The notes under the pieces are model-generated. The model saw only the letters and a program-made list of their open reading frames with translations. It was not told where the DNA came from and made no database searches. The position numbers and the translations under genes were made by a program. Positions 6,571-30,749 of a stretch of 39,601 bases of DNA are shown here, in pieces. The DNA comes from Candidatus Martarchaeota archaeon. GTDB lineage: Archaea > Micrarchaeota > Micrarchaeia > Micrarchaeales > CABMGC01. The DNA lies in assembly GCA_023379055.1 (NCBI GenBank), contig JAMCSX010000010.1:1-39601 (forward strand), read 5' to 3'. Position 1 is the first letter of the stretch. Each line of letters starts with the position of its first letter.

Positions 6571-6590
6571 CTTTGCCCATCAATAAATTT

Positions 6591-6881
6591 ATGGATTATA
6601 GCAACAGGAATATAGTCATAAATGAGCTTATCGGGCTTAAGGCAAGGATAATAAAGTCTCTTGACAGCAGGCAGTACGGGACCTCCGGAACGGTAATAGA
6701 CGAGACCAAGAATACCCTTGTGCTTGAGACCGGTAAGGGCATAAAGACTGTGATGAAGAACATATCTGTATTCAGGTTCTATTCAGGAAATGGGTCCTTC
6801 ACCGTAAAAGGGGAAGAGATCAATTTCAGGCCGCATGAAAGGATTGAACGGGCTATGAGGTTTTACAGAGCAAGAAAGTGA
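6591..6881 (+). CDS. rnp1: Ribonuclease P protein component 1 (Rpp29/Pop4)
   Basis: A 96-residue protein of the archaeal Rpp29 family, a small Sm-like beta barrel that pairs with Rpp21 and binds the specificity domain of RNase P RNA in 5' tRNA maturation. Family marks: NELIGLKARII, GTVIDETKNTLVLET, and the terminal FRPHERIERAMRF. It opens the long ribosomal operon just before uS17, as in many archaea. ATG 6591 is preferred over an in-frame TTG at 6573 because a TATA box lies 30 bases upstream. The RNA partner of this enzyme is also encoded in the window (29060-29297). Confidence 0.92.
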   Translation: MDYSNRNIVINELIGLKARIIKSLDSRQYGTSGTVIDETKNTLVLETGKGIKTVMKNISVFRFYSGNGSFTVKGEEINFRPHERIERAMRFYRARK

Positions 6882-21985: not shown

Positions 21986-22441
21986 ATGTCAAAGACCCCT
22001 AAAGATGTATACGACAAGGCGCTGGAGGCTGTTAGGCTTGCAAAAGCAAGCGGCTCTGTAAGGAAGGGCATAAACGAGGTTACGAAGAGCGTTGAGAGAA
22101 ACCTCTCATCGCTTGTGCTCGTTGCAGAGGACGTTGAGCCGCAGGAGGTAATAATGCACATACCTCCATTATGCGAGCAGAAGAAGATAGCACTTGTATA
22201 TGTGCCTACAAAGGCCGAGATAGGAAATGCTGTTGGAATAAACGTGCCATGCTCTGCAGTCTCAATAGAGAAAGCAGGAAATGCTGAACACGCAATAAAG
22301 GAGGTTGTCTCAAAGGTGACAGGAAAGTCCCAGGAGGGGAAATCTGATGCTACCCAGCCGCAGCAGGCTGCAAAGAAGGAGCCAAAGCCAAAGAAAGAGA
22401 AGCCTGCTGCACAGACAGCCGTGCAACAGCAAAAGGCCTGA
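21986..22441 (+). CDS. rpl7ae: Large ribosomal subunit protein eL8 / L7Ae, kink-turn binder
   Basis: A 151-residue L7Ae protein, a ribosomal subunit that also binds k-turns in box C/D and H/ACA sRNPs and RNase P. Signatures: ALEAVRLAKASGSVRKGINEVTKSVERN with the RNA-contacting GxNExTK, LVLVAEDVEPQEVIMHIPPLCEQKKIALVYVP and AVGINVPCSAVSI. The family is about 120 residues; here residues about 118-151 form a Lys/Gln/Pro/Ala-rich tail, probably disordered. It heads the conserved eL8-eS28-eL24 cluster. Its leader may carry an autoregulatory K-loop (21963-21980). Confidence 0.95.
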   Translation: MSKTPKDVYDKALEAVRLAKASGSVRKGINEVTKSVERNLSSLVLVAEDVEPQEVIMHIPPLCEQKKIALVYVPTKAEIGNAVGINVPCSAVSIEKAGNAEHAIKEVVSKVTGKSQEGKSDATQPQQAAKKEPKPKKEKPAAQTAVQQQKA

Positions 22442-28707: not shown

Positions 28708-29025
28708 CTATAATGCTGCGGCAAGCGCGGCTCCCCCAAAAAGCTTCAGCAAAAGCATCGTGCCAACTGCTGGAAGCCCGAATATGACTATGGCCGCTAT
28801 TATAGGCAATGTAAGCGCAATGCTTATTCCGAATGCCCATCCGACGAGGAACAAGGCAACAAATCCAAGAAGCATGTTGAGTATCAGCCCAACTATTATC
28901 TTAAGCATCAACTTGCCTACCGTCATTATCACGAACAGCACTAGCCCTATCCCTATGGCTACCAATGCAAGCGACGCTATCGAATTCAACGCAGGTACCG
29001 CAAAAAGCATGAGTATATCCTTCAT
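28708..29025 (-). CDS. BofA-like integral membrane protein
   Basis: A 105-residue, very hydrophobic protein with about three to four helices. The part KLMLKIIVGLILNMLLGFVALFLVGWAFGISIALTLPIIAAIVIFGLPAVGTMLLLKLFGG follows the BofA family layout: N near a helix start, GFVALFL, GI-I and a Gly-Pro near the last helix. BofA inhibits the SpoIVFB site-2 protease in Bacillus; archaeal members have no known role. ATG 29025 is preferred because a TATA-like tatatgc at 29050-29056 lies about 27 bases upstream on this strand; ATG 29052 would overlap the RNase P promoter. Confidence 0.6.
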   Translation of the reverse strand: MKDILMLFAVPALNSIASLALVAIGIGLVLFVIMTVGKLMLKIIVGLILNMLLGFVALFLVGWAFGISIALTLPIIAAIVIFGLPAVGTMLLLKLFGGAALAAAL

Positions 29026-29030
29026 TTTCT

Positions 29031-29057
29031 CTTTATAACCTTTTCTATGCATATACC
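29031..29057. promoter_or_regulatory. Divergent promoter: RNase P RNA and BofA-like gene
   Basis: ctttataacc (29031-29040) lies 20-29 bases before the RNase P RNA 5' end at about 29060 on the plus strand. gcatatacc (29049-29057), read on the minus strand, lies about 27 bases before ATG 29025. The two elements are interleaved. Confidence 0.5.
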
Positions 29058-29059
29058 TT

Positions 29060-29297
29060 TGTGGTGTGCGGATGGCTCACGGTCTTTATGACTGAGGAAG
29101 CTCTCCCCATGCAGAGGAAGCGTGGCGTAATTGCCTGATTCGGAACAGAAACGATACTGCTGCTGCACATTAAGCGATGACGCGACGAGCGTGCAGGTGC
29201 AGGTGAAACGGCCGATGCGCAGACTGTGAGCATGCAAGGCTACAAGCCGCTTAGTCAAATGCCATCTAAAACAGAAGGGAGGCTACGGCACACCACA
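29060..29297 (+). ncRNA. rnpB: RNase P RNA (archaeal type A)
   Basis: The catalytic RNA of RNase P, which removes tRNA 5' leaders. P1: TGTGGTGTGC (29060-29069) is the exact complement of GCACACCACA (29288-29297). P4: AGC-t-CTCCC (29099-29107) pairs with GGGAGGCT (29277-29284), leaving the conserved bulged U. Core motifs: GAGGAAGCTC (29094-29103), CAGAAACGA (about 29147-29155), TGAAACGGCC (29204-29213), CTTAGTCAAATGCC and AAAACAGAAG (29268-29277). At about 238 nt it is compact for archaea (commonly about 290-330). The Rpp29 partner is encoded at 6591. Small open frames drawn across it are not genes. Confidence 0.93.
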
Positions 29298-29328
29298 TCC
29301 TTATCAGCACAAGCAAATCTGTGTTTTA

Positions 29329-29472
29329 ACTAGGTTATATTATAATGTAACTTGGTCAATCTCAATATTTCTACCTAGGTTATAATATAATATGAACTCT
29401 GGTGATCAAATAGAAATGTTTATATGGCTATTTCTACCTAGGTTATATTATAATATGAATTTTGGTGATTAG
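29329..29472 (+). repeat. Three operator-like repeats upstream of the AbiE-type locus
   Basis: Copies begin at CTAGGTTATA at 29330, 29375 and 29438. The last two are part of an exact-period 63-base (21-codon) tandem duplication (29368-29430 and from 29431) that also duplicates ATG-AAY-TYT-GGT-GAT. Each copy holds an AT-rich inverted repeat around TATTATAATA with GTTA/TAAC arms, best in copy 1 (GTTATATTATAATGTAAC). Antitoxin AbiEi proteins bind inverted repeats in their promoter, so operators are the likely function; TATA boxes overlap them. Confidence 0.6.
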
Positions 29473-30138
29473 ATCAACATACCGCTAAGAAATCAGCTGC
29501 AGAAGCGTGCGCAAAGGGACGTTGCGCTTCTCGAAGACGTACTGATAAGAATAATATACGAAATTGACAATACGGCAGAGATCCATGGCGGCACTGCCAT
29601 ATGGCGGTGCTATGGCGGGAAGAGGTTTTCAAAAGACATAGACGTGTATATGCAGCATGAAGAAAACTGGAAGGATCTCAAAGACAAAATAAGCGGAGTT
29701 TCAGAGAAATACGGTGCAAAGGTTCTAAAAGTAAAGGACACAGGAAACCTGTTATTCATAGAGCTACTGCTGGATGGCATATACTCTGAAATAGATGTCA
29801 ATTACAAAAACTATTACACAGGGCCCGTAATGCGACAGTACGAAAATCTTGACGGTACGTTTTTTGATATACTTACATTGCCTCCGGAGGCGCTTATACT
29901 GGAGAAAATAAACGCATACAATGGTCGCAGATACCTGACGGATCTATATGACATGAAGATCCTATTGGATAATGCAGACCTAAGCAAAATCAAATCAGAA
30001 TTAAAGGAATTCAAAATTCACATGAAACCTCCCAAGGAAAAGGGACCAGAAGAAGACCGTCTAAAAGGGCTTGTCTACGAGGGTCCGATCCCATCCTTCA
30101 AGACTCTTGCAGACTATATCAAAGGCAGGATAGAATGA
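29455..30138 (+). CDS. AbiEii/AbiGii-type nucleotidyltransferase (type IV toxin); in-frame amber near the start
   Basis: The conserved frame contains LLEDVLIRIIYEIDNTAEI, HGGTAIWRCYGGKRFSKDIDVYM (GG-T ... DID, the nucleotidyltransferase motif), FIELLLDGIYSEIDVNY and ILEKINAYNGRRYLTDLYDMKILLD, as in AbiEii toxins that transfer nucleotides to RNA/tRNA. ATG 29455 opens this frame, but codon 6 is TAG (29470-29472); the duplicated copy 63 bases upstream has CAA there. No ATG, GTG or TTG occurs from 29473 until GTG 29644, which lies after the catalytic motif. So either the toxin is inactivated by one base change, or translation begins at a rare codon such as ATC 29473, about 25 bases after a TATA. 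Confidence 0.7.
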
Positions 30139-30749
30139 CAAAATACCTGAATAAATTAAGACAGCATTACAATAATTATGATTATCCAGTATTCACACTT
30201 ACCGATATCCGGATATTTCTCAGTAACGACGGGGTAAGCCAGAGATATCTGAAGATTATGCTAAACAACCTTATAAAAAAGAAGGAGATAATACGCATAG
30301 CAAAGGGGGTTTACACCTTCCATAAGGATGCGGCAGTAGTCGGTTTTGCGTTCAGGCCTTTTTATTACGGGCTTGAAGATGCATTATCATACAGAAACCT
30401 ATGGACCCAGAATGCAAATCCCACAGTCCTTACCACAAAAAATGTCAGAGAGGGCACAAGGAAGTTTGTGGAAAGCAACTACACGGTTAAAAGGGTTGCG
30501 CCTGAGCTATTTTTTGGCTTTGATTTTATAAAATATTACGAAATGTGGCTTCCAGTATCAGATCCTGAAAAGACACTGATAGATCTTGTCTATTATCATC
30601 ACGGCATAAGGGACGATGCACTAGAAAAGTTATCTGGGTCATTAGACCTACAGAAGCTGGAGGGGTACCTCAAAGCCTACAGTGATAATTTCAAAAGGAA
30701 GATACACAAGATAATATCAACGCGGCCGACACAGAATCGTAATGGATGA
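30135..30749 (+). CDS. AbiEi-type antitoxin / wHTH regulator
   Basis: A 204-residue protein with an N-terminal winged helix (FTLTDIRIFLSNDGVSQRYLKIMLNNLIKKKEIIRIAKGVYTFHKD, about 20-65) and the AbiEi-type C-terminal domain with PELFFGFDFIKYYEMWLPVSDPEKTLIDLVYYHHG. These proteins repress their operon and neutralise the AbiEii toxin. Its ATG overlaps the toxin stop by 4 bases (ATGA). In classical AbiE loci the antitoxin comes first; here the toxin is first. The repeated operators are upstream of the toxin gene. Confidence 0.82.
   Translation: MTKYLNKLRQHYNNYDYPVFTLTDIRIFLSNDGVSQRYLKIMLNNLIKKKEIIRIAKGVYTFHKDAAVVGFAFRPFYYGLEDALSYRNLWTQNANPTVLTTKNVREGTRKFVESNYTVKRVAPELFFGFDFIKYYEMWLPVSDPEKTLIDLVYYHHGIRDDALEKLSGSLDLQKLEGYLKAYSDNFKRKIHKIISTRPTQNRNG

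Follow-up and report, generated by a model that had tools for sequence, protein, structure and literature searches.

The window, by which we mean the whole 39,601-nt stretch of DNA that was analysed, carries on its forward strand a 238-nt RNase P RNA (RPR) gene at positions 29060-29297. The gene matches RF00373, the Rfam archaeal RNase P model, from position 1 to position 288 of its 288 positions with 107.5 bits (E 2.7e-29), against a gathering cut-off of 84 bits. The ends of this match coincide to the base with the coordinates of the original prediction, which had recognized an archaeal RNase P RNA here and would have given it up on a low score in Infernal with the archaeal model, or on a second and better RNase P RNA elsewhere in the genome. 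The score is above the cut-off over the full model, and no second RF00373 match occurs in the assembly (862,375 bases in 28 contigs, 84.66% complete). A permissive Rfam scan of the window added a single sub-threshold miRNA match, outside the RPR gene. On the minus strand the gene is overlapped by two mechanical ORFs (78 and 62 aa), which is the kind of false reading frame that had been warned of. The EF-2 gene of the window found 22 matching loci, of which 19, at 76-86% identity, belong to metagenome-assembled genomes. Of these, 18 carry the name Candidatus Micrarchaeota and one that of Candidatus Marsarchaeota; the remaining three loci are distant bacterial proteins. Judged by these EF-2 matches the host is a Micrarchaeota archaeon, and the DPANN affiliation assumed beforehand is correct in the usual sense of that term. 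The RPR gene looks genuine and complete, and we consider it nearly certain that it is functional and the only RNase P RNA gene that this archaeon has.

Upstream of the gene and on the same strand there is a TATA box (TTTATA, 29032-29037), its centre some 26 nt from the start of P1. The AT fraction upstream of the RPR gene in 49 loci is 0.92-1.00 at -28 to -23 and 0.80-1.00 at -29 to -23, and from the position of the box the transcript would start at or beside the first P1 base. A divergent small hydrophobic ORF (28708-29052) has a weak BofA match (PF07441, below cut-off) and is matched by tblastn in 30 of 48 related RPR loci. Just downstream of the RPR gene lies an AbiEii/AbiEi-like type IV toxin-antitoxin pair (29644-30749), with E 9e-6 for PF08843 and E 4.5e-5, below its cut-off, for PF13338. 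In the 48 related loci, with their short flanks, tblastn found AbiEii in none and AbiEi in one (L029), and given this near-absence the pair looks like a local insertion. Between the RPR gene and the pair, a 30-bp AT-rich repeat with the core CTAGGTTATA occurs three times (29324-29474); the copies are perhaps operator sites of the antitoxin.

The identity of the RNA, the protein genes and the secondary structure described here were computed, and all structural elements lie on the forward strand. P1 joins 29060-29069 to 29288-29297 with ten standard pairs out of ten and shows covariation, so that the perfect 10-bp helix claimed by eye was real. P2 joins 29071-29076 to 29261-29266 with six pairs out of six, five of them covarying, and the P3 hairpin (29080-29094) is indicated by the model match, the alignment and covariation. 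The 5′ strand of P4 (29099-29107) pairs with 29277-29284 in the catalytic pseudoknot, through A29099-U29284, G29100-C29283 and C29101-G29282, the bulged U29102, and five further pairs ending with C29107-G29277. Four of these eight pairs covary; the other four and the bulged U, which had been described as conserved and is T in every one of the 49 aligned sequences, are invariant, as expected of the active site. P5 (29108-29112 with 29230-29234) and P10 (29140-29143 with 29212-29215) were recovered in the covariation test. P7 (29116-29122, facing 29218-29224) has non-standard combinations at its three middle positions, and a hairpin at 29124-29135, assigned below to P9, is the only one between P7 and P10. 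All ten pairs of the P11/P12 arm (29157-29202; CUGC/GCAG and CUGCAC/GUGCAG) covary. J5/15 (CAA, 29235-29237) lies in a GCAAG that is present in 48 of the 49 sequences, and its central A29236 corresponds by position to the A anchor described in the accessible text of PMC6565675. The P15 hairpin (29238-29248) consists of three covarying pairs and a 5-nt loop, the L15/P16 positions of the model being skipped; at 11 nt, and with no P16/P17, it is too small for an RCCA-binding loop.

The conserved regions were located by motif and alignment. The T-loop modules CR-II (ACAGAAACG, 29145-29153) and CR-III (UGAAACG, 29204-29210, exact in 45 of 49 sequences) are both present, as are CR-IV (29249-29262) and CR-V, which includes the 3′ strand of P4 (29270-29284) and is backed by covariation as well. 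The core motifs listed in the original prediction were all found again, with GAGGAAG at 29094-29100, TGAAACGGCC at 29204-29213, and ACAGAAACG and ACAGAAG also present. The RNA thus combines the features by which RF00373 members are known, namely a P4 pseudoknot with its bulged U and CR-I to CR-V.

These observations rest on an alignment of the window RNA and 48 relatives (n=49), drawn from 112 matches in 108 genomes and made up of 28 of the 30 loci first given (the window's own locus and L002 being excluded) and 20 chosen for spread. Unguided, RNAalifold predicted 55 pairs, 43 of them with compensatory changes. The structure that we tested comprised P1, P2, P3, P4 as a pseudoknot, P5, P7, P9, P10, P11/12, the K-turn stem and P15. 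Across the 49 sequences 97.1% of its 2953 cells were paired, compared with 83.6% in shuffled alignments and at most 42.6% when the structure was slid, and two-sided changes occurred in 49 of its 62 pairs. The covariation score was 0.436; shuffles gave 0.190 and slid structures no more than 0.105, and none of 500 shuffles reached the observed pairing, two-sided-change count or covariation score. Single-sequence folds of the S-domain missed the full consensus in most of the sequences tried and were left unused.

In P7 the window RNA departs from most of its relatives. Here GGAAG stands opposite CAGAC, which places G.A, A.G and A.A in the middle and leaves two of the five scored pairs standard, whereas four or five are standard in 45 of the 49 sequences (the exceptions being the window, L016, L021 and L070). 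The helix can be extended by another two G-C pairs, 29121-29219 and 29122-29218. The mismatches may form a tolerated, stable purine loop, or they may be a sequencing error in the draft assembly, and they could also be a sign of early decay.

The tip of P12 (29174-29190) reads GC-GAU-GA-CGCGAC-GA-GC and has the form of a kink-turn, with a GC stem, the three-base bulge GAU and tandem G.A and A.G pairs, in which a six-base loop replaces the second helix. K-loops are targets of L7Ae, and from its sequence the P12 tip is predicted to be the L7Ae site of the enzyme. The motif occurs in its loose form in 49 of 49 aligned sequences and in its strict form in 47, and the two bases that flank the G.A pairs are both C in 48 sequences and both U in L022. 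In the accessible portions of PMC4245976 and PMC6565675, the K-turn of P12 is likewise the L7Ae site in type M RNAs.

In regards to the type of the RNA, it had been called small for type A. The compactness holds, but the assignment to type A does not, since P8, P16 and P6 are absent and the description of type M fits. As far as the accessible text of PMC4919922 goes, archaeal type M RNAs are without P8, P16, the P6 pseudoknot and the P15 recognition loop. The accessible part of PMC7191817 restricts them to Methanococci and Archaeoglobi, with P8 and L15 missing, and the coordinates in its table correspond to lengths of 238 nt (Methanothermococcus okinawensis), 235 nt (Archaeoglobus fulgidus) and 258 nt (a third type M gene). 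In the window RNA no P8 was found next to the single hairpin between P7 and P10, neither P16/P17 nor the P6 pseudoknot is present, and P15 closes its 5-nt loop where a type A RNA carries the L15/P16 region; the four elements missing from type M are thus missing here too. The S-domain, which is largely absent from type P/T RNAs, is represented in the window RNA by CR-II, CR-III, P10 and P12. By anatomy the window RNA is type M, and this could reflect either shared descent with the methanogen RNAs or convergence.

The hairpin retained between P7 and P10 needs some care. Infernal assigns it to P9, though the posterior is no more than about 0.5, and its GUAA loop resembles the P8 loop of Rfam, so that a retained P8 was considered; it was rejected on the evidence of relatives that have both hairpins. 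In L156, L157, L160, L167 and L168 the P8 loop is GNRA-type and the P9 loop UAA-like (with the variants UUAG in L157 and UUCA in L168), the exception to this rule being L158, with GCAA in P8 and GAGA in P9. Within families f1 and f2, the window's clade, an AA-containing loop like the P9 loop of those relatives is found at the retained hairpin in 46 of the 48 sequences scored (of 49), and a GNRA P8 in none of the 48. From these loop types we read the retained hairpin as P9, and the lost element would most likely be P8.

The window also holds the genes for two RNase P proteins, both on the forward strand: Rpp29, in a ribosomal protein cluster (6573-6881; PF01868, E 5.8e-21), and L7Ae (eL8; 21986-22441; PF01248, E 6.7e-24; TIGR03677, 135.6 bits for a cut-off of 134.6). 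Pop5 and Rpp21 are encoded on other contigs of the same genome. PF01876 found no Rpp30 in the genome, and gave none in the Sulfolobus control either. Directly before Pop5, where the accessible text of PMC4919917 leads one to expect the Rpp30 gene, there is an ORF of 166 aa (L032:983-1483) that has no Pfam or NCBIfam match (PF01876 none at E up to 10) and is matched in 45 of 60 genomes, its own included. An AlphaFold model built from 19 aligned sequences has a mean pLDDT of 89.4, and all ten Foldseek matches at E <0.001 were archaeal Rpp30 or chains of archaeal or yeast RNase P/MRP structures. VIA-align gave Z 18.6 to PH1877 (rmsd 2.3 over 159 residues) and 11.6 to the best unrelated barrel. 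A PDB search with the sequence profile of the Rpp30 alignment was of no help, as it ranked mostly designed proteins first and the 6k0a Rpp30 followed at E 0.38. Gene order and the predicted fold, not the sequence profile, identify the ORF as a putative short Rpp30, 166 aa long where the target lengths in archaeal Rpp30 crystal structures are 202-212. The idea that Rpp30 is missing was accordingly discarded on the adjacency to Pop5 and the fold search.

The RNase P protein set is therefore complete as far as it can be tested, with Rpp29, L7Ae, Pop5, Rpp21 and the candidate Rpp30, and the enzyme is not visibly reduced in this genome. The protein-only HARP was considered as a second enzyme and set aside, since PF08745 has no match in any of 60 genomes, own included; the accessible part of a review also reports no HARP in DPANN. 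Since a short Rpp30 escapes the standard profiles, caution is due where subunits are said to be missing in DPANN, and the present case indicates a DPANN genome that keeps a complete RNase P.

The promoters of the tRNA genes bear on what such an enzyme would have to do. According to the accessible part of PMC3491384, the box of the leaderless tRNAs of Nanoarchaeum equitans lies 26 nt before their start. We analysed 30 of the 34 tRNA matches in the window's own genome (L096-L125), and their AT peak lies at -33 to -27 (n=30), with TATA-like boxes phased some 30 nt ahead of the mature tRNA end. When a matrix built from the RPR loci was used to scan for the box, its median start fell at -33 in the tRNA genes and at -30 in the RPR genes, about 3 nt further out in the former, and 15 of the 30 boxes fall within two bases of the median, compared with 2.3 in shuffles. 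In two relatives, G039 and G092 (15 tRNAs each, of 40 and 37 matches), the medians are -32 and -36 with a wider spread, and in G092 only 4 of 15 boxes are within two bases of the median, which is inside the shuffle range. Leaderless tRNAs are unsupported by this spacing, which predicts short 5′ leaders, about 3-6 nt long, which RNase P would have to remove. CCA follows 1 of the 30 tRNA genes, and this near-absence of encoded CCA is in line with the lost RCCA-binding loop.

RNAs matching RF00373 were found in 108 of 118 related genomes and in 129 of 146 genomes across the phylum, own included in both. No match was found in 10 of the 118, two of them among the 49 better drafts, so that the gene may not be universal in the group. 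Two genomes that are 90-91% complete, G023 and G044, have no match although their congeners G052, G058 and G064 have one, and this may be a gap in the draft, divergence or loss. Another genome, G025, carries in addition to its micrarchaeal RNase P RNA a second, different one (L002, G025:C44; 143 bits) with P8 and P9, probably contamination (estimated 5). Full-length matches in the window's order measure 228-246 nt, and elsewhere in the phylum matches measure 191-418 nt, besides one weak 179-nt match (G135, 25 bits). The original prediction had related the small size to DPANN, in some members of which RNase P is reduced or lost. In this genome the size is no particular mark of reduction: 238 nt is ordinary for type M and for the order, the narrow length range being common to the whole order, and the protein set is as complete as can be tested.

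Outside f1 and f2 we examined the 53 RNAs that were fetched of the 56 with a match, using regular expressions and simple stem finding, so that the counts are approximate. A GNRA P8 was found in 7 of the 53, and in 10 of them, in families f4, f5 and f7, the P12 arm is so short that a K-turn would not fit. Family f17 has P8 in all five of its RNAs, two of which (L156 and L157) also align to P16 positions, and G142 has a P8 by cmscan that the script missed. In the individual RNAs L162, L163 and L164 as well as in f4, f5 and f7, several of them only 191-210 nt long, P12 is too short and the L7Ae site seems to be lost. Type-A-like, type-M-like and smaller RNAs all occur in the phylum. In an EF-2 tree of 30 genomes, the P8-bearing genomes sampled from f10, f13 and f17 fall together with f15 into one supported group, and G142 (f16) stands apart; being midpoint-rooted without an outgroup, the tree does not firmly separate loss from gain. 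We tentatively suggest, at a little less than even chance, that the type-M-like RPR arose independently in Micrarchaeota, P16/P6 and then P8 being lost while proteins took over the spacing of the domains, and that some families went on to lose the L7Ae-binding arm of P12 as well. If so, type A, type M and sub-M forms stand side by side in one phylum. The graded series of RNAs in the phylum is a set of natural deletions for testing how proteins replace RNase P RNA structure. The accessible part of PMC4919917 describes a nanoarchaeon, Nst1, with a smaller RNA and no Pop5. Searches by full text, title or the start of the abstract brought up no publication about RNase P RNA in Micrarchaeota, although most subscription papers lie outside the coverage of such searches and an earlier description is possible.

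We propose, by homology with known enzymes as regards assembly, catalysis and protein binding, that the RPR is transcribed from its own promoter, beginning with the first P1 base or right beside it, and that its C-domain (P1-P2-P3-P4-P5-P15) would house the P4 active-site pseudoknot while its S-domain (P7-P9-P10-P11/12), with the CR-II and CR-III T-loops, would grip the tRNA elbow. Since P8, P16/P17 and P6 are missing, proteins probably hold the two domains at the right distance, in the way reported for the Methanocaldococcus jannaschii enzyme, which is of type M. By the same analogy the C-domain would carry Pop5-Rpp30, the S-domain would carry Rpp21-Rpp29, and L7Ae would bind the K-loop of the P12 tip; the complex would remove the 5′ leaders of pre-tRNAs.

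It could be argued instead that a type A RNA is degrading here by genome reduction, on the way to a loss such as that of N. equitans, and a DPANN genome of 862 kb, the absence of P8 and P16, the partly unpaired P7 and the short Rpp30 could all be read in this sense. We regard such decay as very improbable and have rejected it, given that the same architecture is common to the order and covaries strongly throughout, that the genes of all five proteins, the candidate Rpp30 among them, are present, and that the tRNA promoter distance predicts short leaders and not leaderless tRNAs. Slighter still is the chance that the locus is a pseudogene or a fortuitous match and that RNase P activity comes from a different RNA or a protein-only enzyme: an assembly that is 84.7% complete could hide another gene, and the P7 mismatches could be read in its favour, but the full set of core motifs at 107.5 bits, the conserved promoter, the uniqueness of the match in the assembly and the empty HARP search in all 60 genomes speak against it. 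We retain the reading of a functional RNA of type M form, which extends this architecture beyond the Methanococci and Archaeoglobi, the only hosts named in the accessible text of PMC4919922 and PMC7191817.

Compared with the type M RNAs of M. jannaschii (PDB 6K0A) and A. fulgidus, the window RNA has the same absence of P8, P16/P17 and P6, the same minimal P15, a P9, a K-turn motif at the tip of P12, a similar length (235, 238 and 258 nt in the accessible records) and a five-protein set that includes L7Ae; it differs in its Micrarchaeota host and in a K-turn that ends in a 6-nt terminal loop, as a K-loop, instead of a second helix. With the type A RNAs of Pyrococcus and Methanothermobacter, and by cmscan also of the Micrarchaeota G184 and G159, it shares the catalytic core and P1-P5, P7, P9-P12 and P15, but it is without their P8, P16/P17 and P6 pseudoknot, and where they have two K-turns it has one. 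It is a small archaeal RNA like the type P/T RNA of Pyrobaculum and, in contrast to it, retains a full S-domain with CR-II, CR-III and P12.
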